Source of the DNA: an uncultured Oscillospiraceae bacterium
GTDB lineage: Bacteria > Bacillota > Clostridia > Oscillospirales > Oscillospiraceae
Length of the DNA: 64,000 nucleotides
Direction: 5' to 3'
NCBI GenBank assembly: GCA_947627735.1
Contig: CANQXG010000004.1
Coordinates: forward strand, 1-64,000
Of this stretch, positions 32,914 through 56,775 are shown piece by piece. Numbering within the stretch: position 1 is the first letter of the stretch; each line of letters begins with the position of its first letter. The notes beneath the pieces were generated by a model, which saw nothing but the letters and a program-made list of their open reading frames with translations, searched no databases and was not told where the DNA came from. The translations under genes and the position numbers were made by a program.

Positions 32914-33495
32914 TTATGCATCATTCATGGGTATCATGCGCCCGGTGTTGTCCGTGTCGTATTCCCCCGGCAGCAGCAGCTCCGACACCGGCACGATCCG
33001 ATAGCCCTCGCTGAGCAGATACTCTATGACGCCCGGCAGCGCCTCGGGGGTGTACTTGCCCGCGTTATGGAACAGCACGATGCTCCCCGAGGACACCTTC
33101 GTCTTGACCCGCTGCAATATCTCGGAGGCGTTCAGGTCCTTCCAGTCCAGAGAGTCCACGTCCCACTGGATGGGATACATCCCCATGTTCCGCAGCGTGG
33201 TGATCACCCCGTCGTTATACTCCCCGTAGGGACAGCGGAAAACCTTCGGCGCCTGGCCGGTGATCGCCTCGATCTTGCCCGAGCACAGGCTCACCTGGTC
33301 GATGATCTGCTTCTCCGACAGCTCCGCCATGTGAGGGTGGCTGTCGGAGTGGTTGCCGATCTCCATGCCCGCGTCGACCAGGGCTTTCACGCTCTCGGGG
33401 TATTTGTCCACCCACTGGCCCACCAGGAAGAAGGTGGCCTTCACCCCATACTTATTCAGTGTATCGATGAGCGTCTGCGTATCCTCGTTTCCCCA
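32914..33495 (-). CDS. PdaB-like polysaccharide deacetylase, 3' part of an interrupted gene
   Basis: This part encodes the C-terminal 191 residues of a NodB (CE4) deacetylase. It has NHSDSHPHM (metal-binding HxxxH), RCPYGEYND, DVDSLDWK and IVLFHNAG, which are motifs 2-5. Motif 1 with the catalytic aspartate is missing; the frame enters directly at WGNEDTQTL. The ORF stays open to a GTG at 33540, but those first residues come from the inserted element and resemble nothing. The missing 5' part is at 56576-56775 on the same strand. Joining the two at CCCCA gives 777 nt in frame (258 aa). Such enzymes modify spore or cell-wall peptidoglycan; PdaB is a sporulation protein in Bacillus. Confidence 0.9.
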   Translation of the reverse strand, partial: WGNEDTQTLIDTLNKYGVKATFFLVGQWVDKYPESVKALVDAGMEIGNHSDSHPHMAELSEKQIIDQVSLCSGKIEAITGQAPKVFRCPYGEYNDGVITTLRNMGMYPIQWDVDSLDWKDLNASEILQRVKTKVSSGSIVLFHNAGKYTPEALPGVIEYLLSEGYRIVPVSELLLPGEYDTDNTGRMIPMNDA

Positions 33496-33516
33496 GGGTG
33501 ATGTGCGAATGGGGCA
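33491..33516. repeat. attL: CCCCA core plus left inverted repeat of the element
   Basis: Core CCCCA at 33491-33495 is identical to 56576-56580. The element's left end, 33496-33516 (starting GGGTGATGTG), matches the reverse complement of 56558-56578 at 19 of 21 positions. To its left lies the 3' part of the split deacetylase. Confidence 0.85.
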
Positions 33517-33539
33517 GGGCGTCCGTCCGCCCTGCCCCA
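33510..33539 (-). terminator. Strong hairpin at the left end of the element
   Basis: A perfect 12-bp stem (33510-33521 with 33528-33539, loop TCCGTC) overlaps the inner part of the left inverted repeat and lies just after the MATE stop codon. It has no T-run, so it may pause transcription or protect the 3' end and not fully terminate. It would keep MATE transcripts out of the deacetylase half. Confidence 0.6.
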
Positions 33540-33561
33540 CTGTATCGATTCTGCGCTCCGG

Positions 33562-34944
33562 TCAGCTCGTCGTCTGCGCCTTCTTCCGCCAGGCGCCCCG
33601 GCGGTAGGCGATGAAGGTCAGCAGCGCGCCCATGGCCCAGGAGATGAGAAGCGAGCCGAACAGCGCCTGGGGCTGGCCCTTGGGGTAGGCCTCTGTGCGG
33701 GTGAGCCAGGCCAGGCCGTAGGCGATGGGGACGCGCAGCACGATGGTGCTCACCATGGTGATCCACATGGGCGTGGCCGTATCCCCCGCGCCCCGCATCA
33801 CGCCGCCTAGCACCTGGGTCACGGCCACGCATATGTAACCCACCGCCAGGATGCGCATCATGCGCACCGCCATGTCCATCAGCGCCGGGGTGTCCGTGAA
33901 CAGGTCGAACAGATACCGGCCGGCAAACAGCAGTATCGCCGTGATGGTGGCGGAGGTGGCCAGGGCCATGATACCACCCTGCTTCGTCCCCTGCTCCACC
34001 CGGTCCAGACGGCCTGCGCCCACGTTCTGGCCGGCAAAGACACTCATGGCCTGGCCGAAGCTCATGTTGGGCATCATGGCAAAGCCATCCACCCGCATGA
34101 TGATAACGTTGCAGGCCATCACCATCTCCCCCATGCTGTTGGTCAGCGACTGCACCACCAGCATGGCCACGGACATGATGCCCTGGGTGATGCCGGAGGG
34201 CACCCCCAGCTTCACGATCCGCCAGGCCGTGTCTTTGCGCATGCGCAGGGTGCCCAGGTTCAGGTCGAACACCTCCCGCATGTGCATCAGCTTCAAAAAG
34301 CACATGGCCGCGGAGATGGCCTGGGCGATGATGGTGGCCAGGGCCACCCCTGGCACACCCAGCCCGAAGCTGGCCACGAACCACACGTCCAGGAAGATGT
34401 TCAGCACCGTCGCCAGCAGCAGAAATCCCAGCGCGGAGAAGGAGTCCCCCAGGCCCCTGAGGATGCCGGAGAGGATGTTGTAGTATGTAAAGCCCGCCGC
34501 GCCCAGGAAGAATATCTTCAGATACTGGGCGCACCAGTCGAAGACAGAGTCGGGCGTGCTCAGCATCCGCAGCAGCGGCTCGGTGATGAGCGTGCCGATG
34601 AGCATGGTGGCCACCGTGGTGATGGCCGCCAGGGTGATGCAGTTGCCGATGGCCTTGGACAGGCCCTCCCGGTCATTGGCGCCGAAGCGCTGGCTTATCA
34701 CGATGCCCGCGCCGGTGGACACGCCCACGAACACGGCCAGCAGCAGGTTGAATATGGGCATACAGGTGCCCACCGCCGCCAGGGCGTTGTCGCCCACGTA
34801 TTTTCCCACGACGATGGAGTCCACCGTGTTATACAGCTGCTGGGCCAGATTGCCGATGAGCATGGGCACGGCAAATTCCATGATCCGCTTCCAGGGCGCC
34901 CCCTCGGTCATGTCCCTGGCCGTAAATAGCTGGCGAAGCTTCAT
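33562..34944 (-). CDS. MATE-family efflux transporter
   Basis: A 460-aa, twelve-helix exporter of the MATE family. Its start is MKLRQLFTARDMTEGAPWKRI, and repeated motifs such as LYNTVDSIVVGKYVG and PNMSFGQAMSVFAGQNVGAG are typical of the NorM/DinF-like branch. It exports drugs or metabolites using an ion gradient. The ATG at 34944 follows GGAAGGA; the longer frame to 35085 lacks a ribosome site and covers the promoter. It is the leftmost gene of the element, monocistronic, and has its own promoter and a leader with attenuator-like folding. Confidence 0.93.
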   Translation of the reverse strand: MKLRQLFTARDMTEGAPWKRIMEFAVPMLIGNLAQQLYNTVDSIVVGKYVGDNALAAVGTCMPIFNLLLAVFVGVSTGAGIVISQRFGANDREGLSKAIGNCITLAAITTVATMLIGTLITEPLLRMLSTPDSVFDWCAQYLKIFFLGAAGFTYYNILSGILRGLGDSFSALGFLLLATVLNIFLDVWFVASFGLGVPGVALATIIAQAISAAMCFLKLMHMREVFDLNLGTLRMRKDTAWRIVKLGVPSGITQGIMSVAMLVVQSLTNSMGEMVMACNVIIMRVDGFAMMPNMSFGQAMSVFAGQNVGAGRLDRVEQGTKQGGIMALATSATITAILLFAGRYLFDLFTDTPALMDMAVRMMRILAVGYICVAVTQVLGGVMRGAGDTATPMWITMVSTIVLRVPIAYGLAWLTRTEAYPKGQPQALFGSLLISWAMGALLTFIAYRRGAWRKKAQTTS

Positions 34945-34977
34945 GGTATCCTTCCCTTCCTTTGGGGTATGTCTGTC

Positions 34978-35050
34978 AAAAAGCGGGATAGCGCAGCTGT
35001 CAAGCCTGACGCTATCCCACCATGATAGGCGGTGCCGGGAATGCCCGGCG
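34978..35050 (-). promoter_or_regulatory. Structured leader with attenuator-like hairpin upstream of the MATE gene
   Basis: In the ~106-nt leader, GGGATAGCG (35010-35018) pairs with CGCTATCCC (34985-34993) and TTTTT follows (34978-34982), forming a terminator 34 bases before the start codon. An upstream CTATC can instead pair with the GATAG of the terminator arm. A CCGGG/CCCGG hairpin lies at 35035-35048. This suggests a riboswitch or attenuator; no known aptamer was recognised. Confidence 0.5.
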
Positions 35051-35056
35051 CACACC

Positions 35057-35085
35057 ATAATACCAAACCGATCGAGTGAAATCAA
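35057..35085 (-). promoter_or_regulatory. Sigma-A promoter for the MATE gene
   Basis: On the minus strand, TTGATT (35080-35085), 17 bases and TATTAT (35057-35062). The predicted start is near 35050. Confidence 0.75.
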
Positions 35086-35130
35086 GAGGTTTTGCCAAAT
35101 ATATCATATTTTGCCCCCGCCGGCGCCAGG

Positions 35131-35158
35131 CATGTTTCCCCGCTGGCCTTCATAGGAA
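35131..35158 (+). promoter_or_regulatory. Candidate sigma-E-type promoter for the recombinase pair
   Basis: CATGTTT (35131-35137), 13 bases and CATAGGAA (35151-35158). This has the same spacing and CATA core as the sipL promoter in this window (CATATTC, 13 bases, CATACCCT). The predicted leader is about 25 bases, again as for sipL. The -35 has G in place of A in ATATT, and the -10 matches only the CATA core well. Confidence 0.4.
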
Positions 35159-35187
35159 TGAACATCCATTCTCTTTGGAGGTCTGCT

Positions 35188-35328
35188 ATGGCTAAGGACA
35201 AGTCCCCTTCCCCCGCGCCCAGAAAGGCGCCCGCTCCCCCCTGGCGCGTGGAGCGCCGCTTCGACGGAAAACGAACAGCGGACCAGGTGGCGGCGGATCT
35301 CATCAAGGTACATACGCCCCAGCCGTGA
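35188..35328 (+). CDS. 46-aa protein coupled to the recombinase (candidate directionality factor)
   Basis: This small basic protein begins MAKDKSPSPAPRKAPAPPW, a disordered Pro/Lys-rich head. A likely folded tail follows (VERRFDGKRTADQVAADLIKVH). GGAGG lies six bases before the ATG. Its TGA overlaps the GTG start of the large serine recombinase (GTGA), so the two proteins are made together. I do not recognise the family. Size and position suit a recombination directionality factor, the partner that switches large serine recombinases to excision (compare SprB of SP-beta, about 58 aa), but this is inference. Confidence 0.65.
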   Translation: MAKDKSPSPAPRKAPAPPWRVERRFDGKRTADQVAADLIKVHTPQP

Positions 35329-36890
35329 CGAGCGCGAAGGCGAGATACTCCGTCGCCCGCTATGCCCGCCTGTCCCGGGAGGACGGGGACAAGCCGGAGA
35401 GCGACAGCATCGCCAATCAGCTCCGCCTGATCGGGGACTTCTGCGCCCTCCACCCGGAGCTGACCGTCGCCGGCGACTATGTGGACGACGGCTACACCGG
35501 TACCAGCTTCGACCGGCCCGACTTCCGGCGGATGCTGGCGGACATCGACGCGGGCCGGGTCGACTGTGTGATCGTGAAGGACCTGTCCCGCTTCGGCCGG
35601 GACTACATCGACATGGGCTATTACCTGGAGCGCTGGCTCCCTGCCCGGGACGTGCGGTTCATCGCCGTCGGCGACGGCGTGGACAGCCTCCGGGGGCCAT
35701 ACGACATGCTCCTGCCGCTGAAAAACGTCTTTAACACCCAGTATGCCCGGGACATCTCCGCCAAGGTCCGCGGCTCCCTGGCCGCCAAGCAGCGGCGGGG
35801 CCAGTTCGTGGGCGCGTTCGCCGCCTACGGCTATGTGAAGGACCCGGAGGACAAAAACCACCTCATCGTCGATCCTGTGGCCGCCCGGGTGGTGGAGCGA
35901 ATATTCACCCTGGCCGCCGCCGGCGTGGGACAGATACGCATCGCCAAGCTGCTCAACGACGAGCGCGTGCCCTGCCCCAGCGAGTACAAGCGCCTCATGG
36001 GCCAGCGGTACACCAATGGCCGCCGGCTGGACGCCACCCGCTACTGGACCTACGCCACCGTCCACCGCATCCTCCGCAGCCCGGTCTACACCGGCGCGGT
36101 GGTGTCCGGCCGCTCGGTCCGGCCCTCCATGCACGCCAAGGCCAAGGCCGCCCCCGCGGCGGACTGGATCGTCGTGGAGGGCATGCATGAACCCATCGTG
36201 TCCCGGGCGTTGTGGGACGCTGCCCAGGCCCAGGTGGGAGCCAATGCCCGGCCCATCGGCTTTACGGGCAGCGTGAGCCTGTTCGCGGGGCTGCTCCGGT
36301 GCGGCGAGTGTGGCCGCGCCCTGTGCAAGACCACCTGGAACGGCCGCGTCACCTATGCCTGCGGGTCCTATCACCGCTACGGCCCCGCCGTCTGCTCCCC
36401 CCATTACATCGGCGAGGACGCCCTCGCCGCCGTCATCCTGGCGGACTTAAACCGCCTTCTCCGGTCCGTACACGACCTGCAAAGCCTGGCGGCGCGGCAG
36501 AGGGCCGCCTGCTCCGCTCAGCCCTGGGAACGGGAGCTTGCCCATCTGCAGGGAGCGCTGGAGCGCGTCCGGCGGCTGAAGCAGAGCGCCTATGAGGACT
36601 ACCGGGACGGGCTGCTCACCCGGGAGGAATTTGCCCGGTATAAGGCGGACTACGACCGGCAGGAGGACGCCCTGGCCCGCCAGATCGCCGCCGCAGAGCA
36701 GGCGCAGCCCGACGCGCCGCCGGACAGCCCCTGGACGGAACAGCTCCTCCGGACCGGCGGGCTGTCCTCCCTGGACCGGGCCACCCTGGCCCAGACCGTA
36801 AAGTCTGTCCGCGTCTTTGCGGACCGGCACCTGGAGATCACCTACCTGTTCTCCGACGAGGTAAGTGACGCGCTGGAAAAGACGGACTAA
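35325..36890 (+). CDS. Large serine recombinase (site-specific integrase/excisionase)
   Basis: A 521-aa recombinase of the SpoIVCA/TnpX/phiC31 class. The N-terminal resolvase domain (about 5-150) has the nucleophile serine in YARLSREDGD and later DLSRFGRDYIDMG. Then come the Recombinase domain (about 165-290), a zinc ribbon (CGECGRALCKTTW ... CGSYHRYGPAVC, about 325-362), and a coiled coil (about 400-450, HLQGALERVRRLKQ ...) of the type that controls integration versus excision. The GTG start overlaps the small upstream ORF. Its 3' end overlaps the stop codon of the convergent AlgX-like gene by four bases. It is the only recombinase in the element and so the obvious catalyst of its insertion. 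Confidence 0.95.
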   Translation: MTSAKARYSVARYARLSREDGDKPESDSIANQLRLIGDFCALHPELTVAGDYVDDGYTGTSFDRPDFRRMLADIDAGRVDCVIVKDLSRFGRDYIDMGYYLERWLPARDVRFIAVGDGVDSLRGPYDMLLPLKNVFNTQYARDISAKVRGSLAAKQRRGQFVGAFAAYGYVKDPEDKNHLIVDPVAARVVERIFTLAAAGVGQIRIAKLLNDERVPCPSEYKRLMGQRYTNGRRLDATRYWTYATVHRILRSPVYTGAVVSGRSVRPSMHAKAKAAPAADWIVVEGMHEPIVSRALWDAAQAQVGANARPIGFTGSVSLFAGLLRCGECGRALCKTTWNGRVTYACGSYHRYGPAVCSPHYIGEDALAAVILADLNRLLRSVHDLQSLAARQRAACSAQPWERELAHLQGALERVRRLKQSAYEDYRDGLLTREEFARYKADYDRQEDALARQIAAAEQAQPDAPPDSPWTEQLLRTGGLSSLDRATLAQTVKSVRVFADRHLEITYLFSDEVSDALEKTD

Positions 36891-38473
36891 TCCACGATGA
36901 GCTTATATGTGACCGGCTCGTAGAGATATTCCCCATTGGCGTCAACGCCGATGAAGCTGATCTCAGAGGCGCCCTCAAACATCGACGCGGGCAGTTTCTC
37001 GTCAAACCCCACGTCGTTCAGCGCTTCGTTTTCATATGCTTCGCCCACATCTGCGCGTCTTTGCCCATAGTTGAGCCTCACCACCGCGTCGCCCACCTGC
37101 AGATACAGCGCCTGGAAGGGGGCGTTGTTCTTAAAGTCCGCCGCCCAGCCGTGCAGCTCGACATACCGCGTGGAGCTGTCCAGCGCAACTTCCGGGCTGT
37201 TACGCACCGTCACGCCGTTGAACCTGTCCAGGCATACGCCCTGTCTGCCGACGCCGGCGCCGTACTCCTCCGCTGTTATCATCGCCGTCTGCGGCAGCTC
37301 CGGCAGCTCCTCGCCCGTATCGACGATAAACGGTTCTCTTTTCAAAATAAAATCGATCTGCCGTTCCCCCACGCCAAATATGACCACATCCGGCTTTACC
37401 AGCTCGTCGAACTCCATGTCCACCGCTCTTAGCCCCATGAACATGACCGTTCTAAAGCTTTCCGCAAACATCTGCGGAAGTTTGTGATACTGCGTCCATT
37501 GGGAATCACCATAGATTAAGAGCGTACCGTTTTCGGCGTTGGCGTTTTCAAAAATAGCAAAGCCCAGTCCGCGGGCCTCATTATCCGCCTGTTGGAATAC
37601 CCGGCTCTGCTCATACAGCGGTCCGTCCGTTATCATCGTGCTGCTCACAGGCCATTGTGCTGTCGGTATGATCTCGTTTCCCAGACTGTGGGAATAGCCC
37701 ATCATATCGGAAAGATCCCCATTCTCCTTCTGCTCGTCCAAAAAGGTGACTGAAAGATCATCCATTGCTATTCCCAGTTGCTCCAGCTTCTCCGCCACTG
37801 TCTGATATATCACATACGAGCCAAGGTCCGTTGCATGGGTGTCATGCTGATAATACAGCTTCCCCTTATCCTTGTTTGCCAGCATTGCGGTCTTCGCGTT
37901 CACGACCTGCACCGTCGTGTTCTCCTCCAGATACCTCTCCAGCTGGTCGCACACCGTTTCCTGTACGGCATAATCTCCGGAGGCGATATATTCCGGGTAG
38001 ATGGACGGTTTTCCGGGGTCCATCACCAAAAGATACGGTATCCCCTGCTGGGCGTACCAGTCGCTGATCCTCTGCTGCCGCTGGGCGATGTCCTGCAAAA
38101 GTTCCTCCGACAGCTTATACTTTCCCGCCCCGATCTCCACATTGTGATCGCCGGTGAAATAATACCACCCATCCCGTCCAACCTCCACCCGATCGCTGAT
38201 GGACTGTGGAAAGAGCTTCAGTCTTATTCCTGCCGCCAGTTTCACAAATACGGAGCGAAAGCCCAGGTTGTCCCCCAGCCAGCTCTCAAATCCGCTTTTC
38301 AGGCCGTCGGACAGGTGACCTTCCCCGTCAAATACATCCGGGAACGTCGCCAGATACCGGTTTTCCGCCTCCGACACGACCCCCGGTATGCGGTTTATCG
38401 TCAACAGAGGCAGGACCAATACGGCCGCGAAACAGATGACCCCGGCGAGCAGCGCCGCTTTTTTCCCTCTCAT
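36887..38473 (-). CDS. AlgX/AlgJ-like SGNH-family protein (glycan acyltransferase partner)
   Basis: A 528-aa protein with one N-terminal membrane segment (AALLAGVICFAAVLVLPLL) and an extracytoplasmic SGNH-hydrolase-like domain. It has DTHAT (about 212, the D-x-H pair of AlgX/AlgJ), and IYGDSQWT (about 322) supplies the serine nucleophile. A C-terminal beta-rich region follows. In alginate, cellulose and Dlt-like systems, such proteins take an acyl group from an MBOAT protein and place it on a polymer outside the membrane. The MBOAT gene is directly upstream. The ATG at 38473 follows GAGGTG; a GTG at 38482 is less likely. Confidence 0.85.
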   Translation of the reverse strand: MRGKKAALLAGVICFAAVLVLPLLTINRIPGVVSEAENRYLATFPDVFDGEGHLSDGLKSGFESWLGDNLGFRSVFVKLAAGIRLKLFPQSISDRVEVGRDGWYYFTGDHNVEIGAGKYKLSEELLQDIAQRQQRISDWYAQQGIPYLLVMDPGKPSIYPEYIASGDYAVQETVCDQLERYLEENTTVQVVNAKTAMLANKDKGKLYYQHDTHATDLGSYVIYQTVAEKLEQLGIAMDDLSVTFLDEQKENGDLSDMMGYSHSLGNEIIPTAQWPVSSTMITDGPLYEQSRVFQQADNEARGLGFAIFENANAENGTLLIYGDSQWTQYHKLPQMFAESFRTVMFMGLRAVDMEFDELVKPDVVIFGVGERQIDFILKREPFIVDTGEELPELPQTAMITAEEYGAGVGRQGVCLDRFNGVTVRNSPEVALDSSTRYVELHGWAADFKNNAPFQALYLQVGDAVVRLNYGQRRADVGEAYENEALNDVGFDEKLPASMFEGASEISFIGVDANGEYLYEPVTYKLIVD

Positions 38474-38483
38474 GTCCTGCACC

Positions 38484-40037
38484 TCAGAAATTGAAATAGA
38501 TGAACGGATTGTATGTGCTGGTGACGGTGAACGCCACGGCGACGATAAACACCGCCCCGTAGGCCGCGCCGGACAGGATGCTGCATGCCGCCAGCCGTTT
38601 TCCTGTCTGCCCGCTCATTTTTTCCCGCAGCCAGGGGATGACCGGCATGGAGAGCACCGCCGACAGCAGGAACAGGACCGCGCCCTTGCCCACCAGGAAC
38701 GTACTGGCCCCATCGGACAGGCTGTTGCCCATCAGCCCGAACAGGCTCCCCAGATACCGGAACGCGCCGCCCATGCTGTCGCTGCGGAACACCACGTCCG
38801 CCAGCAGCGCGAGAAACAGCGTCCGCCCGGTCTGGAATACCCGGAACCACCGCGCCTTTCGGTCGATGCCCAGCTTCTTCGTCCACTTTTTGAGCAGCGG
38901 ACCGAAAACGGCGTCCAGGGAAAGGAGAACGCCATAGTAACAGCCAAAGATGATATAGGTCCAGTTCGCGCCGTGCCAGATACCGTTGCAGAGCCAGACG
39001 ACCATAAGGGGCACGACCGTCCGGACGACCTCCTTGCCCCGGCTCCCCCAGCGCTCCTTCGCCCGGGCGCACAGCTTCCGCAGCCAGCCGGCGCCGGAAA
39101 CGGGCACGAACAGGTAATCCCGAAACCAGCTGCCCAGGGAGATATGCCAGCGCCGCCAGAACTCGCCCACGGTTTTCGATATATACGGGTAATTGAAATT
39201 CTCCTTGAAATGGAACCCGAACATCAGCCCTAGGCCGATGGCCATATCCGAATACCCGCTGAAATCGAAGTAGACCTGCAACATATAGCTCGCCGCGCCG
39301 AACCACGCCAGCAGCACCGTCAGCTGCGAGTAGTCCGTGTATCCAAAGGCCCGGTCCACGATGACCGCCAGGGTGTTGGCCAGGATGGCCTTCTTCCCCA
39401 TCCCGATGATGAACCGTTTGATCCCCTGGGCGAAGTCCTCCAGGGTCTCCTTCCGGCCTGTGATCTCCTCCGCCACCGTTTCATACCGGACGATGGGTCC
39501 CGCGATGAGCTGGGGAAACAGGGCCACGTACAGCATGGTGTTCAGCGGGTTCTTCTGCACCTTGCCCCGGCCATAGTACACGTCGAACACGTAGCTCATG
39601 GCCTGGAAGGTGAAAAAGGAGATGCCGATGGGCAGGGCGATGTTCCGAAGCGGGATGGGCCTGGCCCCGAACAGGGACGTCACCGCGTTGATGTTGGTGA
39701 TGGTGAAGTCCAGGTATTTATACACGAAAAACAGCGACAGGTTGAACACGACCATCAGCACAAGGCAGCTTTTTGCCTTGTGCTGATAGCTTTTCGCCGT
39801 GGAAGCCTTTCCCAGCTCCCTTGCCCGGGTGTTGCACCTGTCTATCTGCCAGGCGAGAACATGGTTGACCAGGATCGAGCCGATCATCACGAATACGAAT
39901 GTCGGCTCGCCCCAGGCGTAGAACAGCAGCGACGCCGCCAGCAGGAAATAGTTCTTGAGCTTTGGGTTCAGCAGATAGTACCCCGCCAGCGTCACCGGCA
40001 GGAACGCAAATAAAAATATCGTAGATGAAAAGACCAT
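38484..40037 (-). CDS. MBOAT-family membrane O-acyltransferase (DltB/AlgI-like)
   Basis: A 517-aa multi-helix protein: MVFSSTIFLFAFLPVTLAGYY, YAWGEPTFVFVMIGS, then SYVFDVYYGRG. The MBOAT active-site histidine lies in NGIWHGANWTYIIFG (about 318). It moves an activated acyl or aminoacyl group across the membrane. Encoded next to it are a carrier protein (upstream) and an AlgX-like extracellular protein (downstream), the DltC-DltB-DltD arrangement. GAGGT lies before the ATG. Confidence 0.95.
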   Translation of the reverse strand: MVFSSTIFLFAFLPVTLAGYYLLNPKLKNYFLLAASLLFYAWGEPTFVFVMIGSILVNHVLAWQIDRCNTRARELGKASTAKSYQHKAKSCLVLMVVFNLSLFFVYKYLDFTITNINAVTSLFGARPIPLRNIALPIGISFFTFQAMSYVFDVYYGRGKVQKNPLNTMLYVALFPQLIAGPIVRYETVAEEITGRKETLEDFAQGIKRFIIGMGKKAILANTLAVIVDRAFGYTDYSQLTVLLAWFGAASYMLQVYFDFSGYSDMAIGLGLMFGFHFKENFNYPYISKTVGEFWRRWHISLGSWFRDYLFVPVSGAGWLRKLCARAKERWGSRGKEVVRTVVPLMVVWLCNGIWHGANWTYIIFGCYYGVLLSLDAVFGPLLKKWTKKLGIDRKARWFRVFQTGRTLFLALLADVVFRSDSMGGAFRYLGSLFGLMGNSLSDGASTFLVGKGAVLFLLSAVLSMPVIPWLREKMSGQTGKRLAACSILSGAAYGAVFIVAVAFTVTSTYNPFIYFNF

Positions 40038-40058
40038 GACGACCTCATAACCCCACGG

Positions 40059-48812: not shown

Positions 48813-49691
48813 TTAACGGTCCGTTTGGACGCTGTCGATGTAATCCCGGATCGAACGGGCAAGTTCGATCTGCGGCTCCCAGCCCGTCGCCTGCCGGATC
48901 TTCGTGATATCCGCGCAGAAGCTGATCCTGTCCTCATGATGCTGAAAGCAAGGCTCCTCTTCCAGGCCAAAGGCGCGCATGGCCTCTCCGGCGACCGACC
49001 AGATGGGCGTCGCGCGGCCTGACCCGATGTTCAAGATCTGCTGCTCCGGATCGCATTCCGCGACGCGGAGGATCGCTTTTGACAGATCCCGCACATCGAT
49101 GAAATCGTTCTCGTTGTACGCGGTGCGAAGGGCCGGCTTTTGTCCGTTTTTCAAGCACTTCACCACGTAGGGGATCACAGAATTAGCCCTCTGATTTGGC
49201 CCAATCACATAAAAGGGCCTCACCCAATGGAAGTCCAGCTGTCTTTCGAGGCAATACTGCCTTGCCATCCCCAGCAGCCCCGTCTTTGCCGCTGTAAAAG
49301 CATCCGTGTTCCTTATCGGCCACTCCTCCGGGATCGCTCCCTTGGGATCGAGATACTCAAAGCAGCTTCCCGTGAAGATAAAGTGTTTGATCCCCGCCCT
49401 GTAACCCTCCTCCAGGAGGTTGAAACTGTTTCGCACGCTGTTCCAGCTGTTTTCATAGGAATAGTCCGGTATCCCTATCCAGGCCAGATGGATGCAGCAA
49501 TCGATCTGCTTTGCCTGCAACACGCTGTTCAGGTGGGCGGGGTCCCCAAGGTCGCACTGCAGATACTCGTCACATTTTGATGCCGGCTCTCTCCTGCTGC
49601 CCAGCGCGTAAACAAAATGTCCGGCCCGCGCTGCGTCGGCGCACACATTTTTCCCGATAAAGCCGTTTGCGCCCGTTATCAGTAGCCTCAT
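48813..49691 (-). CDS. SDR-family nucleotide-sugar epimerase/reductase with atypical active site
   Basis: A 292-aa extended SDR. It has Rossmann motif LLITGANGFIGKNV (about 3) and HLAWIGIPDYSYENSWN. The usual catalytic YxxxK is FTAAK here (about 139), with phenylalanine in place of tyrosine, followed by RPFYVIGPNQR. In this position it could be the C4 reductase that finishes the GDP-deoxyheptose, but loss of the tyrosine argues for altered chemistry. It is part of the minus-strand run between the RmlC-like gene and the methyltransferase-kinase. Confidence 0.8.
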   Translation of the reverse strand: MRLLITGANGFIGKNVCADAARAGHFVYALGSRREPASKCDEYLQCDLGDPAHLNSVLQAKQIDCCIHLAWIGIPDYSYENSWNSVRNSFNLLEEGYRAGIKHFIFTGSCFEYLDPKGAIPEEWPIRNTDAFTAAKTGLLGMARQYCLERQLDFHWVRPFYVIGPNQRANSVIPYVVKCLKNGQKPALRTAYNENDFIDVRDLSKAILRVAECDPEQQILNIGSGRATPIWSVAGEAMRAFGLEEEPCFQHHEDRISFCADITKIRQATGWEPQIELARSIRDYIDSVQTDR

Positions 49692-49703
49692 TTCAACACT
49701 CCT

Positions 49704-51752
49704 TCATTTTGCCGTACTGTCCGGCATTTCCGGCCCGGGAAGCTCCATGGCCATATTCAGGCGTATCTTCCTCGTCCCCAGCATGCCGCGGCCGTCTATG
49801 ATGATCTGCGGGTCCGTTGTCTTGAAAAGAAAGTTCCCGTTTCCGAGGCGGACCCCATTGGTCCGATATGGCACGTTCCTTCCCCGTTCATCCGTGACGG
49901 AGCGGACCTTCACAAGACAGCACTGGCTGCACAGGACCGTCCTCACGGTCTTCATCTCCGCGGGAAACTCCAGCTCGACCTCTACGCCCCTGGACGGGGG
50001 CAGGTCGTTCGCCAGGCGGTAAACGACTTCGTTCGCCGCGCCCTGGCCGCGGCTTTTGCTGATATGTACGGGCTGGCATACAAGGGCCTTATGCCCGACG
50101 GCAGGATACTGATCGATGCGTTTTCCCGAATAGCCAAACCGCGCAAACGACCGCTCCATTTTCAAAAAGACCGTCCGCAGCTCTTCGTCTATCCCATAGC
50201 GCTCATAGAGAAACCCGGCGTCGTCCTCGGAGAACTGGAACTGATACATGATGCCCCGCCAGAGGATGAACAGAATCGGGACGCTGAAAGGGAGCGTCCA
50301 CTCGTAATCGATCACGTGCCAGCGCCCGTCCTCCGTCACGATGATGTTCTGGGGGATCATGTCCACATTGCTCACCGCGGGCGCGCGGAGGGAAAGAAGC
50401 CGCGGATCGGCGGCGCCGAAGGTCTCCCGGAAATCCCGCGTCGGCACGAAATACTGCGCCTTCTCGGAGAGGATATCCAGCAGTCTGTCGTACTCTGCCA
50501 TTACCCGCCCATAGTCCTTGGCCACGAGGCAGTCGTTTATGACCGACGACAGATTCCTCCCTTCCAGATATTCAAACTCGACCCCGTCCCCCCGCATGGC
50601 GCAGCGGTCGAAGCTGACTCCACACTCCCCATAGGCGGCGGTCAGACGCCGGTAGCTCTCGCAGATGTTCGCCGCATGCTGTCTGCCGTACCAGGAGCGG
50701 GGCGTCTTCCGGACGAGCCGCTGCCCGTCCCTGGAGAGGATGCTGGTGCGCATGTCATATATTGGCCGCCGGCCGGGATTGAATCGCACGTATTGGATCG
50801 GGTCCAGCTCGCTGTCGGGACCGGGCCGGACGGAGGCGACGACCAGATAAGAGTTTGTAAACTCGCTGAACGTCCCGTCCTCGGCCATGGTGTAGAACGC
50901 CTCTTTCTCCGCGCCCTCGTTCAGCAGATTTTCCCGGTCGTATTCCCACGTATAGCAGTGACTTGCCAGCTCTCCTCTGCGAGGCGCGTAATCGTCGGAG
51001 TAAAGATTCTGCATGAACCTGTATTCCGGCAGAGGGTAAAAGAACTTGCTGCGGCCGAATCCGGCGGCGCTCATATAGTCCTTCAGCTCACGCAGGCTGA
51101 AATACCGATGCTGGGGCATGGACGTGACGCCGGTCAGAGAGGCGCCGCCATGCTCCTCCCCCAATATCCTGCTGCCGTTAAAGGATTTGAACCCGTACTT
51201 GTTGTCCGCGGCCAGGACGACCCTGCCCCTGTCTGACAGGCGCTCCCGTGCCCAGGCCAGCATGTCCCTCTGGGGGTCGTCGCTTTGAGGAAAGTAAAGC
51301 GCCGCCTCGGAGAATGCCTCCGCCATCACGATGTAATCAAACTTCCGGTCCTCCAGCTGTGCCTCCAGACCGCTGAGGCCGCTGTAGGCGCAGTAGGTGA
51401 TATTCGTATGGTCCTTGTTCCGCACAGTGCTGATATATGTCCTGACCAGGTCAAGATCAAAACAGCACACATGGCCCGCCTTGGCGGCCAGCGCCCCGGT
51501 GAGCTGACCGTAATCCGACCCCAGCTCCAGGACACTGTCGTCCTTCCGTATAGGCAGCCAATCCACGCAGTTCTTTCTCAGCTTCGACAGCACGGCGGTG
51601 TATTCCGGGAGCAGCTCCGCCGCGGAAACGGTCCTGTAATTGCTGTCATCCAATATCTCCAGCACGGCTGCGTCGAACCCGGTCAGCTCGGTGTTGCCGT
51701 CGGGGACGATATCGGTACATATCCCCCCGACAGGCAGTTCTGAAACAAACAT
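49704..51752 (-). CDS. Methyltransferase fused to a kinase-like phosphotransferase domain
   Basis: A 682-aa protein with two enzymatic parts. About residues 60-260 form a class I SAM methyltransferase (VLELGSDYGQLTGALAAKAG, then YIVMAEAFSEA). About 330-560 resemble aminoglycoside/LPS-kinase folds: LVRKTPRSWYG, the catalytic NVDMIPQNIIV (normally HxDxxxxN) and the metal motif VIDYEWT. A C-terminal beta-rich region follows. Similar methyltransferase-kinase proteins cap or modify the growing end of O-antigen chains (WbdD type), which here would suit an ABC-exported glycan. Chain-end modification is inference. Confidence 0.82.
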   Translation of the reverse strand: MFVSELPVGGICTDIVPDGNTELTGFDAAVLEILDDSNYRTVSAAELLPEYTAVLSKLRKNCVDWLPIRKDDSVLELGSDYGQLTGALAAKAGHVCCFDLDLVRTYISTVRNKDHTNITYCAYSGLSGLEAQLEDRKFDYIVMAEAFSEAALYFPQSDDPQRDMLAWARERLSDRGRVVLAADNKYGFKSFNGSRILGEEHGGASLTGVTSMPQHRYFSLRELKDYMSAAGFGRSKFFYPLPEYRFMQNLYSDDYAPRRGELASHCYTWEYDRENLLNEGAEKEAFYTMAEDGTFSEFTNSYLVVASVRPGPDSELDPIQYVRFNPGRRPIYDMRTSILSRDGQRLVRKTPRSWYGRQHAANICESYRRLTAAYGECGVSFDRCAMRGDGVEFEYLEGRNLSSVINDCLVAKDYGRVMAEYDRLLDILSEKAQYFVPTRDFRETFGAADPRLLSLRAPAVSNVDMIPQNIIVTEDGRWHVIDYEWTLPFSVPILFILWRGIMYQFQFSEDDAGFLYERYGIDEELRTVFLKMERSFARFGYSGKRIDQYPAVGHKALVCQPVHISKSRGQGAANEVVYRLANDLPPSRGVEVELEFPAEMKTVRTVLCSQCCLVKVRSVTDERGRNVPYRTNGVRLGNGNFLFKTTDPQIIIDGRGMLGTRKIRLNMAMELPGPEMPDSTAK

Positions 51753-51763
51753 GACTTATGCCC

Positions 51764-53809
51764 TCACATCCTCACGATCTTCCGCACGAACCGTCCTATG
51801 GGCCGCGGCGCCCGCTCGCTCGCCCACAGGAACAGCGCCCCCCTTACGCCCACATCGTTTGAAACCGTGGCGTCCGCGGGGACCTTCAGCACCCGCCTCA
51901 GGCCGCGGGAAAGCCCTTGGGGCAGCTTCTTGTCCGCATACAGCAGCAGCGAATGGCGCAGCTGGTATTTCTGATACGACATACACGGGCCGCTCACAGG
52001 ACCGGGGCGCGAGCGCCTGAACTCGGCCACCGCGCCTCGAAGTGACCGGATCAGCGCCGCGTGGGTGCTGAACTGCACCCGGGGCATCCCCCGCAGGGCG
52101 TCCAAGGTGTCCCAGTGCATCGTCCTGAAATTGGTCAGCTCGCTGGCGGCATACTGTGGGTTGAGCACATACTCCGAGTAATAGCCGTTGTACTGGGCCA
52201 CGTACGGAAGCAATCTCTCCAAGGCATGGCCCAGTGTTCCATCCCCCGCCGCCGGCTCTCTGGGGAAATCCTGGTAGGTCCATTCATGCATAAAGAGCGT
52301 TTTCAGCGCGTCCGTCCGCGCCCAAAAAAACGTGCCAGTAGAAAAAGCCCCCTTTTTCTTATCCATCGGGACCGTCATCCCCAGCGAATAGGCTACTTCG
52401 ACCGATTTCTCGTAACAAAGCGTCCAGGTGTTCAGCCAGCCCAAAAAATACGACCCGTGGTAGACGACGGGCGGCACCTGCATCCCCAGGCATGGGTGCT
52501 CCTCGAACCGGTTGAGGATGTTGCTCACGTACCCCGGGCTGAAGAGCGTGTTCTCCCACAGCAGGTCCCGGAAGGACGGACCGACGGCCGTATTCTCCTT
52601 CTGGGAAGATTTCTTGTCGTGGACAAAGCAGACATACTCATACTGCATGAGGTAGTCATGGCACCCCACCAGCAACGCGCTGATATCCCTGCCTCTCTGC
52701 TCCACCTTGACGAAGATCAGGCGGTTTTTCAGGGCTTTACCGAATTTTTCGCGGAGCGTTTCGATCTGTCCGTCGTCCCGGTTCGTGAGGATGATATCCA
52801 CCTCCGGCGGCAGATTCCGCAGGAATCGCAGATCATAGTCGAACAGCTCGGGATAGCTGGTGTGGAGGACCAGAGCGATCTTCTTCCCCTGATAGAGCTT
52901 CTTTCCCCCGTAAACATCCACGTCCGGCACGATGGCCGTCAGGTTGAGGCTTTGGTGGATGTCGTTCAGGTCATACTTGCGCAGGAGGTATTTGTAGATC
53001 AGGGATGTGTCATAGTCCGTCTCCCGCTCCACATACTCCATGGTCTTCTTCAGGTCGTTGCCGTAGTTATACCGCAGCGTCTCGGACTTGGGCGTGATAA
53101 AAGCCTTGCGCTTCAGGACCGGGAACCGGCGGTTCGCCACCATCTCATAGATGTTGAAGGTATGGTTGGAGATATTCTTCGTTATGTCCTCAGACTCCAG
53201 ATCCGCCGTGTCGGAATAGACCCCCAGCCGGAAACCGGCGTCCTCGAACCTCTTCGTAAAGGCGGGGCCGAAGTTTGCCGCTGCCTCGGAAACGTTCTTA
53301 TACTCCTGCAGGGTGCTCCAGAACTCCTGGAACACCTGTGAGACCATGAGTCTTTTCCTGAACGCCACAAAATAGGTCTGAAGATACCTGTACCGGTGGT
53401 CGTAGGGCGATGACACATTGGGTATGTTCGGTACGGCGCCGTGGGCCGAAAGGCCCCAGAAATCCACCTCCGTGCGGCTGTCCATCTCGTCAAAGACCTC
53501 TTTGAACGGATAGAGCGGACCGAAAAAGGAGTCGTTGAAAAGCACCAGCTCGTCATACTTTTCCAGCTCATTCAACCCCAGCAGGAACAGCCCGCTCTTA
53601 AAGCCGCTTATGTCAAAGCCCACGTCCGGCCGCACCGAGATCTCCTGGGAATATTTTGAAAGTACCCGGCGGCCCTCCTCCGACAGGCACCCGTTGCAGA
53701 CGATGATAAGCCTGTCCAGGTTCTGGCTCATATCGTCCAGGAGATACTCGACATACTTGTCCACATATCCCTCGTCGTCAAAAAAGGCAAATATCCCTGC
53801 TCTTCTCAT
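51764..53809 (-). CDS. RgpF-type rhamnan synthesis glycosyltransferase
   Basis: A 681-aa protein. The N-terminal half is typical RgpF (GIFAFFDDEGYVDKYVEYLL, VGFDISGFKSGLF, LFNDSFFGPLY). The second region (about 315-520) reads KKIALVLHTSYPELFDYDL ... FVHDKKSSQKEN ... AFSTGTFFWARTDAL. RgpF proteins build rhamnose-containing wall polysaccharides. A basic C-terminal tail follows. It lies 11 bases before the methyltransferase-kinase gene and 87 bases after rmlD. Confidence 0.9.
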   Translation of the reverse strand: MRRAGIFAFFDDEGYVDKYVEYLLDDMSQNLDRLIIVCNGCLSEEGRRVLSKYSQEISVRPDVGFDISGFKSGLFLLGLNELEKYDELVLFNDSFFGPLYPFKEVFDEMDSRTEVDFWGLSAHGAVPNIPNVSSPYDHRYRYLQTYFVAFRKRLMVSQVFQEFWSTLQEYKNVSEAAANFGPAFTKRFEDAGFRLGVYSDTADLESEDITKNISNHTFNIYEMVANRRFPVLKRKAFITPKSETLRYNYGNDLKKTMEYVERETDYDTSLIYKYLLRKYDLNDIHQSLNLTAIVPDVDVYGGKKLYQGKKIALVLHTSYPELFDYDLRFLRNLPPEVDIILTNRDDGQIETLREKFGKALKNRLIFVKVEQRGRDISALLVGCHDYLMQYEYVCFVHDKKSSQKENTAVGPSFRDLLWENTLFSPGYVSNILNRFEEHPCLGMQVPPVVYHGSYFLGWLNTWTLCYEKSVEVAYSLGMTVPMDKKKGAFSTGTFFWARTDALKTLFMHEWTYQDFPREPAAGDGTLGHALERLLPYVAQYNGYYSEYVLNPQYAASELTNFRTMHWDTLDALRGMPRVQFSTHAALIRSLRGAVAEFRRSRPGPVSGPCMSYQKYQLRHSLLLYADKKLPQGLSRGLRRVLKVPADATVSNDVGVRGALFLWASERAPRPIGRFVRKIVRM

Positions 53810-53896
53810 CTTCTAAGTTGACCTTTCTGCCGCCCCGCCGCCATAGGCGCGGGGGTTATGATGATCCTTCTTTTCGCGCGACCGTCCGCCGCGTGC

Positions 53897-54748
53897 TCAG
53901 CGCCGGTCGTCTGCCTCTATGTACCTGCGCAGTGCGTCATGCCAATCGGGCAGTCGGCGGAATCCGGCCTCGTCCAGACTTTTCTTGCTCAGCCGGGAGT
54001 TCAGCGGACGCGCTGCCTTCGCGGGATACTCGGCCGTTGCGATCGGGTCCACTCTGACGCGCTTCCCCGCCAGCCGGAATATCTCCCGGGCAAACTCCGC
54101 CCAGGAGCATACGCCCTCGTTGGTGGCGTGATATACGCCGTATTTGTCCGTTGTGACCATGTCACACAGAAGCGGCGCCAGGTCCGCCGTATAGGTGGGG
54201 CTGCCGATCTGGTCGGATACCACCCGCACCTCGTCCCGGTCCCCTGCCAGGCGGAGCATCGTCCTGACGAAATTGCCGCCATTGGCGCCGAATACCCAGG
54301 AAGTGCGGACGATGAAATAACGGTCCAGCAGCTCTTTGACCGCCCGCTCCCCGCCCAGCTTTGTGGTCCCGTACACATTGACCGGTCCGGTGGGGTCGTC
54401 CGGCTCATAGGGCATCTCCCCCGTCCCGGGAAACACATAGTCCGTGGAGAGATACAGCATTTTCGCCCCCGTTTCCCGGCAGGCCCGGGCGATGTTCCCC
54501 GTCCCGTCCACATTGACCGCCCGGCACTTTTCCGCCTCCTCCTCCGCCCGGTCCACCTTCGTGTAGGCCGCGCAGTGGATCACGGCGTCAGGACGGTAGC
54601 GCCGCACCGCCTCCATCACGGCTGCGGCATCGGTGACATCCAGCTCCGCGGACGACGTGCCCATATGCTCTATGCCGCGCCGGCCAAGCTCTCCGCACAC
54701 GTCATATCCCAGCTGTCCGCCAAAGCCTGTAACAAACACTTTCATCAT
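53897..54748 (-). CDS. rfbD: dTDP-4-dehydrorhamnose reductase RmlD
   Basis: A 283-aa SDR: KVFVTGFGGQLGYDV (about 3-17), VIHCAAYTKVDRAEEE, STDYVFPG and the catalytic YGTTK (about 129). It reduces dTDP-4-keto-L-rhamnose to dTDP-L-rhamnose. The start is at 54748 or the next ATG at 54745. It is encoded with an rmlC (55715-56269), but rmlA and rmlB are absent from the element, so those steps must come from elsewhere in the genome. Confidence 0.94.
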   Translation of the reverse strand: MMKVFVTGFGGQLGYDVCGELGRRGIEHMGTSSAELDVTDAAAVMEAVRRYRPDAVIHCAAYTKVDRAEEEAEKCRAVNVDGTGNIARACRETGAKMLYLSTDYVFPGTGEMPYEPDDPTGPVNVYGTTKLGGERAVKELLDRYFIVRTSWVFGANGGNFVRTMLRLAGDRDEVRVVSDQIGSPTYTADLAPLLCDMVTTDKYGVYHATNEGVCSWAEFAREIFRLAGKRVRVDPIATAEYPAKAARPLNSRLSKKSLDEAGFRRLPDWHDALRRYIEADDRR

Positions 54749-54755
54749 AAGACCG

Positions 54756-55721
54756 TCATATCAGATTCTTTTTGCCGGCCCACAGCAGCAGCTGAAACAC
54801 AGGCTCCGGCACCCATCCGGCAAGCACCTCGAATACCGACGGCAGCGGACTGAACCGCCGGTACTTCCACACGGCCCTCTTGCCGCCCCGATGGGACCAG
54901 TTGTCCCTTCTGGCACCGGCCCAGGAAACAGCCTCGTCCAGCTCCGGCAAGTCCGGGAGATTCTCCCGCAGCCAAAGGAGCCGGTCGAACATAGCGTCTA
55001 TCCTGACCTTCCCATAGCTGGCCTTGTCCTGTACGCCCGCCAAGAGGCCCGTCTGGTTCCCGCCGTGGATGCGGTAGCGTATCAATTTATCCGGCAGGGA
55101 GATGATCTTCCCCTTTGTCGCCGCGTACAGCGCCAGATAGTGGTCATGGACCATGTAAGGGCAAAAGGGCATGGCCGCTTTGGCCGTTTCCGCCCGGAGC
55201 AGCATCGTACAGCCGGTAACGAAGTTGCTTATGAGAAGTTCCCTTGCCAGCCCCTCCCCGGAGCGGAACACATGGTGCCGGCGCACCTTTGTGATGCTGT
55301 CCGCCGTCTGGCGCCCGTTTCCGTCTATGATGACCATATCCGAACACACCAGCTCCGCGCGCTGCGCCTCTATGGTTTCCTGCAAAACCGCCAGCTTCTC
55401 CGGCAGCCAGATGTCGTCCTGATCGCAGTAGGCAAAATATTCGCCTTCAGCCTCCGCCGTCAAAAGCGCGAAGGTGCCGTTGGAACCCAGGTTCTTCTCG
55501 TTGCGCCGTATCTCATAGGGGAAGGAGCGGATATGCTTTTTCACCAGCGCCTGTGTCGCTTCAAAGGGCGCCGTGGGCGAGCAGTCGTCCCGTATGTACA
55601 GCCGCAGATTGGGATAGCTCTGCTCCTCCAGGGACTTGAGCTGCTCCTCCAGCCAGTCCATGCGCGGCTCATATACCGCCATGAGGATGGCGATGAGCGG
55701 CCTATTTGCTTTCTTCACCAC
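54756..55721 (-). CDS. Family 2 glycosyltransferase (rhamnosyltransferase-like)
   Basis: A 321-aa GT-A transferase. It has IAILMAVYEPRMDWLEEQL (about 9), RDDCSPTAPFEAT with the DD nucleotide site, and AYCDQDDIWLPEKL (DQDD metal motif, about 96). The region HDHYLALYAATKGKI follows. This is the WbbL/RgpB-like group that often transfers rhamnose. The start is GTG at 55721 or 55718, overlapping the rmlC stop. Confidence 0.9.
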   Translation of the reverse strand: MVKKANRPLIAILMAVYEPRMDWLEEQLKSLEEQSYPNLRLYIRDDCSPTAPFEATQALVKKHIRSFPYEIRRNEKNLGSNGTFALLTAEAEGEYFAYCDQDDIWLPEKLAVLQETIEAQRAELVCSDMVIIDGNGRQTADSITKVRRHHVFRSGEGLARELLISNFVTGCTMLLRAETAKAAMPFCPYMVHDHYLALYAATKGKIISLPDKLIRYRIHGGNQTGLLAGVQDKASYGKVRIDAMFDRLLWLRENLPDLPELDEAVSWAGARRDNWSHRGGKRAVWKYRRFSPLPSVFEVLAGWVPEPVFQLLLWAGKKNLI

Positions 55722-56269
55722 GTTTCAAAGCCCGTCACCGCGTCCTTCAGGAAGGGCGCTTTTTTGTCCTTTTCCGACAGGATAGGCATCTCTATCCCCC
55801 ATTCCACGCCGATCTCCGGGTCGTTCCAGCGTATGCCCCCATCCGCCTCCGGGGCATAGGGGTTGTCCGCCTTATAGAGAAATTCCACCTCGTCGGTCAG
55901 GGTCAGGAACCCATGGCCAAATCCCCGGGGGATCACGACCTGGCGCTTGTTGGCCTCACTCAGCTCCACTGCCGCCCACTTCTTATAGGTAGGGCTGCTG
56001 GGCCGCAGGTCCACCGCCACGTCCAGCACCGCCCCACGGATGCATTGCACCAGCTTTGCCTGGGCCTTGTCCCCCCGTTGGAAGTGGATGCCCCGCAGGG
56101 TCCCCTTCACCGCGGATGCCGAGAGGTTATCCTGGACGAAGTCATAATGGAATCCGCTGGCCTCGAACTCCCTCTTAGACCAGCTCTCCATGAAAAAACC
56201 CCGATCATCGTAAAATACCCGGGGTTCGAGAATGTATACGCCTGCCAGCGCTGTCTTCGTATATTTCAT
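55715..56269 (-). CDS. rfbC: dTDP-4-dehydrorhamnose 3,5-epimerase RmlC
   Basis: A 184-aa cupin epimerase: GVYILEPRVFYDDRGFFMESW, catalytic His in LRGIHFQRGDKAQAKLVQ (about 60), and Tyr in EVEFLYKADNPYAP. It makes the L-configuration of rhamnose for rmlD. It is the promoter-proximal gene of the whole polysaccharide run, about 108 bases below the predicted transcription start. The ribosome site is weak (GGTGAAATCGCG). Confidence 0.94.
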   Translation of the reverse strand: MKYTKTALAGVYILEPRVFYDDRGFFMESWSKREFEASGFHYDFVQDNLSASAVKGTLRGIHFQRGDKAQAKLVQCIRGAVLDVAVDLRPSSPTYKKWAAVELSEANKRQVVIPRGFGHGFLTLTDEVEFLYKADNPYAPEADGGIRWNDPEIGVEWGIEMPILSEKDKKAPFLKDAVTGFETW

Positions 56270-56383
56270 CGCGATTTCACCATGGGCGTGTCCGCCTCAT
56301 TCAGCTTCCGTCCGCCTGCTCAAGATCAGCCGCGCCACGATCAAAACATGTCTTATGACCGTGCGCACATACAACGTCATTAG

Positions 56384-56413
56384 ATTATAGCACATCCTAA
56401 CTATATATGACAA
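56384..56413 (-). promoter_or_regulatory. Sigma-A promoter for the polysaccharide locus
   Basis: On the minus strand, TTGTCA (56408-56413), 18 bases and TATAAT (56384-56389). It is the only strong vegetative promoter seen for the glycan genes (56269 down to 36887) and gives a leader of about 108 nt. Confidence 0.75.
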
Positions 56414-56470
56414 GTAACAATAAGTGTTATTTCAACACTCTGCGCGTGGCAGGAGCGGTCATCTGCGCAT

Positions 56471-56524
56471 AAAAAAATCCCCCGTTTCGTGCAGCGGTTT
56501 CACACTGCACAAAACGGGGGGATT
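56471..56524 (-). terminator. Terminator just inside the right end of the element
   Basis: A long stem pairs AATCCCCCGTTT with AAACGGGGGGATTT and GTGCAG with CTGCAC. On the minus strand it is followed by a 7-T run (56471-56477). It would stop transcripts that enter from the deacetylase promoter and insulate the glycan promoter. Confidence 0.85.
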
Positions 56525-56557
56525 TGCGTCCACGATATGGCCGGGTCATGTTCCAGT

Positions 56558-56580
56558 TGCCCCACTCACACATCACCCCA
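56558..56580. repeat. attR: right inverted repeat plus CCCCA core
   Basis: 56558-56578 is the 21-bp right inverted repeat (reverse complement starts GGGTGATGTG). It ends in CCCCA (56576-56580), shared with attL. Joined to the left end it gives a 44-bp near-palindrome centred on CA, the predicted attP. To its right lies the 5' part of the deacetylase gene. Confidence 0.85.
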
Positions 56581-56775
56581 CGCGGCGTCGAAGGTGAGGC
56601 TCACGGTCTTGTCCTCGCGCTGGACACAGTAGATGGGCAGTTCCTTGGCGGAGGCGGACACGCCCACCACCGCCGGACTGTTCACCACCCAGAATATGGC
56701 GGCCACCGCCAGCACCAGGGCAGCAGGCCCCAGTATCCGGCGGTGTTTCATCAGCATGGTTCGGATCTTTCCCAC
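56566..56775 (-). CDS. PdaB-like polysaccharide deacetylase, 5' part of an interrupted gene
   Basis: The N-terminal 67 residues are host-derived. A membrane/signal segment (GPAALVLAVAAIFWVVNSP, about 16-34) is followed by ELPIYCVQREDKTVSLTFDAAWG, which carries NodB motif 1 with the catalytic Asp. The frame then runs into the element and stops (DV, TGA at 56566). The rest is at 32914-33490. Continuing from TGG-GG at 56576 into 33490 reads TFDAAWGNEDTQ without a frame change. The start is GTG at 56775 with GGAGGT seven bases upstream. A sigma-E-like promoter lies just above. As it stands the gene cannot make an active enzyme. Confidence 0.9.
   Translation of the reverse strand: MGKIRTMLMKHRRILGPAALVLAVAAIFWVVNSPAVVGVSASAKELPIYCVQREDKTVSLTFDAAWGDV

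Follow-up and report, generated by a model that had tools for sequence, protein, structure and literature searches.

A serine-recombinase element that splits a PdaB-like deacetylase gene of gut Oscillospiraceae at one codon, and its predicted excision in the mother cell

Can a gene that lies in two parts far away from each other still be in use? The question is raised by a stretch of 64,000 nucleotides from an uncultured Oscillospiraceae bacterium (contig CANQXG010000004.1 of assembly GCA_947627735.1, positions 1 to 64,000; hereafter the window), in which a NodB-type polysaccharide deacetylase gene is interrupted by an element that encodes a large serine recombinase (LSR). The answer that we favor, with a probability of about 0.75, is that a serine-recombinase element sits at a fixed codon of a PdaB-like gene and is likely excised by its own LSR in the sporulating mother cell, rejoining the gene. 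It is supported by the in-frame join of the two gene parts, the att arms, the LSR within the element, empty sites in relatives and insertions at the same codon in many genera. According to an earlier sequence-only reading of the window, the interruption is a skin-type element that would leave a NodB gene of sporulation by excision; given the element's own LSR, the palindromic arms, the related LSRs that cut this codon across many genera and the SigE-like promoter motifs, that proposal is retained as the best reading, short of proof. Excision itself is predicted from the DNA sequence.

The split gene and the ends of the element

On the minus strand, the head of the gene (56775-56576) translates without stops and ends in LTFDAAW, and the tail is open from 33489 down to a stop at 32914. 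The sequence-only reading had begun the tail at 33490; its open reading frame (ORF) stands, but the start does not, since base 33490 completes joined codon 67 and a tail read from there is out of frame. Both parts contain TGGGG (CCCCA on the plus strand, at 33491-33495 and 56576-56580), and when they are joined at this overlap a gene of 777 nt results, i.e., 258 codons and a stop, whose product aligns with that of an intact orthologue (locus L041) over 258 residues without gaps and with 84.9% identity. The in-frame rejoining claimed from the sequence is thus borne out, and so is the alignment of the joined protein to relatives that had been put forward as its check. Without excision, the head ORF stops after 69 codons. 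The best NCBIfam model for the intact orthologue is PdaB (TIGR02764), with a score of 208.4 bits that lies below the curated cut-off of 237.4; the name therefore goes no further than PdaB-like, and a role in sporulation is suggested by this similarity. The split gene is the sole Polysacc_deac_1 (PF01522) match in the source assembly, a draft of 72 contigs that is 86% complete, and the second intact deacetylase copy that would have spoken against a programmed split was not found in it. The same genome encodes SigE and SpoIVA, both over their family cut-offs, and the relatives of the gene in named collections come from gut Oscillospiraceae, the closest mostly being metagenome-assembled genomes from rabbit gut.

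A short direct repeat and inverted att arms are present at the element ends, in the form of a 5-bp core and of a 21-bp arm, GGGTGATGTGnGAnTGGGGCA, that runs inward from the core at both ends with no mismatch at the specified bases. When up to three mismatches are allowed, 0.03 matches of this arm would arise by chance in the window, and in the complete draft assembly it is present at two places, the two element ends. When the two ends are brought together, a palindrome centred on CA (TG in the coding strand) results, and inverted repeats on either side of a dinucleotide are described as the usual make-up of attP sites for serine recombinases (PMC5595907). The alternative of a transposon with terminal repeats was rejected, because serine integration accounts better for the LSR, for the palindrome of the attP and for a core of two bases. 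In other carriers the arms have the common form GCCGCAnTnnnACATCACC with some variation; TGGGG stands at the junction in 29/29 tail-side rows (27 distinct) and in 11 of the 13 head-side rows, the other two having TGGGC. In genome G307 an unbroken palindrome, GCCGCAATTTCACATCACCC-CA-GGGTGATGTGAAATTGCGGC, is located about 4 kb past the gene tail on a contig that also carries a second close LSR; judged by its form, it is a physical copy of the deduced attP. Hairpins were also observed just inside both element ends (window 33510-33539 and 56474-56525), and these are possibly terminators that insulate the element from the interrupted gene.

The recombinase of the element, which had been overlooked in the sequence-only reading, is encoded on the plus strand, and its Resolvase, Recombinase and zinc-ribbon domains all score over their cut-offs, which identifies it as an LSR. 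With this gene found inside the element, the idea of a recombinase acting in trans was dropped, and an antisense ORF opposite to it (35082-36404, 440 aa), which belongs to no family, was rejected as a gene. Among solved structures the LSR is nearest to TnpX, and its best score as a recombinase of SCCmec (CcrA/B/C) was 104.3 bits (CcrB) against NCBIfam cut-offs of 700-900 bits. A Pfam scan gave no family for the 46-aa ORF that overlaps the start of the LSR gene, a candidate recombination directionality factor. A small ORF like it precedes 30/31 LSRs that are at least 46% identical to that of the window (two of these matches being weak, E 0.01-0.03, one lacking a clear start, and L070 being the miss), as well as 17/18 close LSRs after omission of the 13 used for model building; one weak match was found before 32 LSRs of at most 38% identity.

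Recurrence of the insertion and the recombinase clade

Among 25 loci compared, two (L040 and L041, near-identical to each other in the gene) have an uninterrupted gene, no cargo and both flanks of the window kept over kilobases, one flank of L041 matching over 3.8 kb (83.8%) and the other over 3.7 kb (82.6%); the remaining loci have one flank or little of either in common with the window. These sister loci supply the empty sites that had been named as a further check. Besides the cut of the window (site A), a second one (site B), at the WDVDS motif, occurs in other genomes. In eight other genomes of the window's genus that were searched, the gene is whole in five (G095, G163, G294, G327, G358), cut at site B in G384, cut twice in G216 and without a match in G257. 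A cut at the same base as in the window was observed in 8/80 named-genome loci (L056, L057, L068, L070, L073, L094, L112 and L113, of which L094 and L112 recur as G193 and G216 in the family-genome set), and the halves joined in frame in 8/8 other genomes tried, these being the eight with head and tail in hand and no cut at site B. A close LSR (E<=1e-130) is carried by 29/400 family genomes, in 15/106 genera. In a survey that covered 150 family genomes, a match to the intact protein (E<=1e-38) was obtained in 96, and by the range matched 5 of these are cut at site A and 8 at site B, with six further rows ambiguous, several of them at contig ends. The same arrangement was found in two one-contig genomes (G078 and G206), and among ten site-A elements of which both ends were fetched, the smallest is about 4 kb long (G132) and the largest 29 kb. 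On contig 42 of G039, the 3' part of the gene is whole (codons 63-252) at 98503-99072 and a fragment of it (codons 174-252) recurs 14 kb on, at 112677-112913, an arrangement that might be due to a second element which left or introduced a copy of the gene end.

In a FastTree phylogeny of 44 sequences, 36 LSRs form one clade with support 1.0. By contig position, 25 of the 36 are on a contig with a deacetylase gene cut at site A, five adjoin collagen-like sequence and one is near the unbroken attP. In G158 the LSR lies inside a gene of which both parts match PF01391 (Collagen) and have GGACCCACCGG in common; in G080 (L216 near 8466) and G380 (L217 near 54) one part only is seen, with Gly-X-Y repeats, the short G080 piece giving no Pfam match. 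Collagen-like proteins of the BclA type are found at the spore surface. In C. difficile, bclA1 is placed in the SigK set, its promoter being queried (PMC3789822). Relatives of the LSR were found at 23 loci in viral contigs (best 45%, outside the clade), in 477 plasmid records (all <60%, best listed 36%) and in 551 phage records (all <60%, best listed 37%).

Both cuts occur together in eight genomes (G150, G182, G200, G214, G216, G246, G271 and G344) out of 36 that were selected because they carry an LSR or belong to the window's genus and of which 34 gave a match. The gene of these genomes is in three pieces, corresponding to codons about 1-70, 48/66-180/185 and 170/177-254, and in G150 and G214 all three are colinear on one contig. 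The three site-B elements examined carry a different LSR, 26-28% identical to that of the window. In G216, which belongs to the window's genus, the site-B element (22/26 ORFs scanned) again contains a glycan operon, with five GT2 members, two WsaF, rhamnose-type genes and an ABC exporter.

The cargo of the window's own element is made up of a MATE transporter gene and a long minus-strand operon with AlgX-like, DltB-like MBOAT, acyl-carrier-like, formyltransferase, AMP-binding and ABC exporter families, together with heptose-type and rhamnose-type sugar enzymes, methyltransferase-like proteins, RgpF, GT2 and RmlC (Table 1); synthesis and export of a surface glycan with acyl modifications are the predicted functions of this operon. 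Neither a phage family, such as would mark a prophage-like element, nor a replication gene was found among 20 scanned ORFs. In eight site-A elements (54 of the 64 ORFs called were scanned), most families occur once, among the 25 of 57 families listed; these include MobA/MobL, a type IV secretion system (T4SS) coupling protein, a YqaJ viral-type recombinase domain, a sortase and metabolic enzymes. Cargo thus varies between carriers, and a glycan operon is no common feature of the element family. Outside the element, window 59702-61657 (minus strand) encodes an OppC-type oligopeptide-permease protein (651 aa) whose N-terminal domain is separated from the permease domain by inserted RCC1-like repeats.

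Table 1. Coordinates of the split gene, its element and related features (window positions unless another locus is named).
Feature	Position	Strand	Basis
Deacetylase gene 5' part, codons 1 to 66/67, including shared TGGGG	56576..56775	-	translation, join test
Deacetylase gene 3' part, codons 66/67 to 258 and stop, including shared TGGGG	32914..33495	-	PF01522
Intervening element including one 5-bp core copy, 23,085 bp	33491..56575		end comparison
att junction beside 3' part: core CCCCA 33491-33495 and inward arm 33496-33516	33491..33516		repeat search
att junction beside 5' part: inverted arm 56558-56578 overlapping core CCCCA 56576-56580	56558..56580		repeat search
Large serine recombinase, 521 aa	35325..36890	+	PF00239, PF07508, PF13408
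46-aa ORF, candidate recombination directionality factor	35188..35328	+	4-base overlap with LSR start
SigE-like promoter motif GCATGTTT-N13-CATAGGAAT upstream of small ORF	35130..35159	+	predicted
SigE-like promoter motif TCATAA-N15-CATAGGAT upstream of deacetylase gene	56805..56833	-	predicted
MATE-family transporter gene (cargo)	33562..35085	-	family match
Predicted surface-glycan operon (cargo)	36887..56269	-	family matches
Unbroken 42-bp palindromic attP	L218:5084-5125 = G307 contig 2, about 164083-164124		sequence form
Collagen-like gene parts around G158 LSR	L220:2-385 and 9466-10329 (G158 contig 15)		PF01391
Spo0A C-terminal-domain protein adjoining LSR in G216 site-B element	L185:10846-11286 and 11814-13277 (G216 contig 9)		

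Selection, promoter motifs and the choice between explanations

Codons 70-174 are open and the paired histidines kept in 27/27 split genes (two of them identical), and the R-P-Y-G motif pattern was matched in 25 of these, the other two having RLPYG and RFPYG. The point made from the window alone, that halves without stops or frameshifts do not look like a decaying gene, accordingly extends to all 27 over these codons, with the metal-binding motif kept. The ratio of nonsynonymous to synonymous divergence (dN/dS) to the nearest intact gene has a median of 0.109 in split genes, with dS saturated in two of the 27, vs 0.083 for 49 intact genes (p=0.17), and the low values of the split genes are due in part to recent arrival of the element. 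In L056, L057 and G216 the dS of the LSR is about 0.1 and that of the gene 0.4-0.7; a test of vertical descent failed for these three, in which the LSR spread recently. In two congeneric pairs the LSR and the gene gave dS values of 0.51 and 0.47 (G193/G344; gene dN/dS 0.21) and of 0.72 and 0.67 (G039/G342; gene dN/dS 0.076, head 0.26); the pair G180/G305 is unusable because its LSR dS is saturated. Such about equal divergence of LSR and gene in both pairs is what a gene that is still functional, and that had been split before the members of each pair separated, would show.

The pattern NNATR-N14-17-CATA, which we take to resemble the SigE consensus, was found at most 80 bases upstream of the small ORF in 16/29 cases (shuffles: mean 0.78, largest 5 in 300) and, as controls, in 1/34 outgroup LSRs and 4/218 long ORFs of the same loci. 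It occurs in the window at a rate of 0.017 per 80 bases, and a stricter form was found upstream of the small ORF in 4/29 (shuffle mean 0.04). Upstream of the deacetylase gene, it is present in 55/76 distinct upstreams, that of the window included, with CATA in 74 (four loci in which no start codon was found and duplicates were left out; shuffles: mean 2.7, largest 7 in 200). In C. difficile, SigE and SigK have the same -10 form, and the polysaccharide deacetylases CD3257, CD3248 and CD1319 are under SigE control (PMC3789822).

Several observations weigh against a programmed excision during sporulation. The motif was picked post hoc and among related sequences, therefore the shuffle figures overstate the case; it is absent from 13/29 small-ORF upstreams, a search for it at three site-B LSRs gave 0 matches, and the spoIVA upstream of the same genome, used as positive control, contains no exact match (by eye, TCATAA with CGTATGTT is seen there at similar spacing). 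Some insertions are recent transfers, therefore intact halves need not mean selection, and the pair G039/G342 is not clean because its LSRs are at opposite ends. Additionally, five of the 36 clade LSRs are unplaced, the LSR of G369 is beside a whole gene, the intact orthologue does not reach the PdaB cut-off (237.4 bits) and a search for the attP core in viral contigs gave 0 matches.

A first alternative is a mobile island with a TnpX-like recombinase that has entered a conserved but dispensable gene, merely inactivates it and leaves only on transfer. The LSR does resemble the transposon recombinases TnpX and TndX, mobilisation genes are present in some elements (MobA/MobL and the T4SS coupling protein, one ORF each of the 54 scanned), the recent spread in L056, L057 and G216 is what an island would show, and sets of LSRs that have one conserved target gene in common, free of any tie to development, have been described (PMC10083194). 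Nevertheless, an island of this kind seems unlikely, since it would leave unexplained the 27/27 split genes without decay, the equal divergence of LSR and split gene under purifying selection in two congeneric pairs, the SigE-like motif upstream of the recombinase operon and the sister LSRs at collagen-like genes, and since a second gene copy is missing from the source assembly.

The surface-glycan operon predicted as cargo and the coexisting circular and integrated forms of yin in yabG (PMC10747680) could instead recall a phase switch, in which the element would go in and out in growing populations, so that the surface glycan and the traits of the spores would vary independently of the mother cell. 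The varied cargo among carriers, the promoter motif that points to sporulation and the loss of the operon upon excision unless the circle replicates (no replication gene being among the 20 ORFs scanned) make such a switch highly improbable. As to an assembly artefact joining unrelated contigs, the draft state of the source genome would allow for it, but the att arms at both ends and the same arrangement in one-contig G078 and G206 and in named genomes oppose it; with independent genomes showing this arrangement, an artefact is very unlikely, to the point of hardly counting.

Under the favored reading of a mother-cell excision, SigE (or SigK) RNA polymerase would read both the interrupted gene and the operon of small ORF and LSR in the mother cell. 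The 46-aa protein may then act as the directionality factor that turns the LSR to excision, and recombination between the two junctions would release a circle and leave the deacetylase gene restored and switched on. The forespore would keep the element, which would thus be inherited, and the mother cell, dying anyway, would lose it; the glycan operon would be cargo. This scheme is likely, being drawn from the anatomy of the locus and from skin, gin and yin (PMC5025042, PMC5595907, PMC10747680). A wider proposal appears to us slightly better founded than its negation: an LSR lineage of gut Clostridia may have specialised on mother-cell genes, cutting the PdaB-like gene at one codon and collagen-like genes at Gly-X-Y, with a distant LSR group cutting the deacetylase gene elsewhere. 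A three-piece gene would in that case yield one enzyme through two programmed excisions, like a gene with two DNA introns, and one SigE-type promoter class would make the process self-timed. If the predicted excision of these elements takes place, spore formers have acquired programmed DNA excision several times, such excision is common in the gut, and annotation pipelines would misjudge these spore genes as broken when the sporulation ability of gut species is assessed. The LSR, the small protein and the att sites are also a natural candidate set for one-way DNA tools.

Comparison with known elements

The sporulation gene-intervening elements known from the cited literature interrupt sigK, spsM, spoVFB, gerE and yabG of Bacillus and clostridia. 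A close likeness is to gin in gerE of Bacillus cereus ATCC10987 (PMC5595907), a non-phage element that splits a sporulation gene rejoined in frame, with a serine recombinase (GirC), att inverted repeats around a dinucleotide and a tiny partner protein without motif (GirX, 42 aa). It differs in target gene, host group and recombinase arrangement, the window element having one LSR inside with the small ORF directly upstream and overlapping; also, excision of gin was shown experimentally (PMC5595907), whereas that of the window element is a prediction. The skin element in sigK of C. difficile is likewise an LSR element in a mother-cell gene, and it cannot be excised without CD1234 (72 aa), a small directionality factor whose production is controlled by SigE (PMC5025042). 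There, the LSR gene is driven by SigA and the factor alone by SigE, whereas the overlapping small ORF and LSR of the window would share a promoter; skin is described as prophage-like (PMC5025042), unlike the window element with no phage family among 20 ORFs. In Clostridium botulinum, yin is inserted in the sporulation gene yabG, yields an excised circle and has a putative directionality factor with a putative SigK promoter (PMC10747680), but it is prophage-like, has another target and is reported as unique to one isolate, whereas the window element belongs to a family found in many genera.

A conserved site in one gene is also met with diverse LSRs at one target, such as the gene for a prolyl isomerase or for Mg chelatase (PMC10083194); the main text of that survey has 0 occurrences of "deacetylase", and the passages on shared targets mention no developmental excision. 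The remark in the sequence-only reading that no described element in a pdaB-like gene is known agrees with the open-access literature, in which none is named among the matches listed. The excision mechanism is of an already known kind. What is new is the target gene, the host group (gut Oscillospiraceae, mostly uncultured) and an LSR clade found largely at that gene, together with the small partner as candidate directionality factor, the shared promoter class, the second cut site and the three-piece genes.

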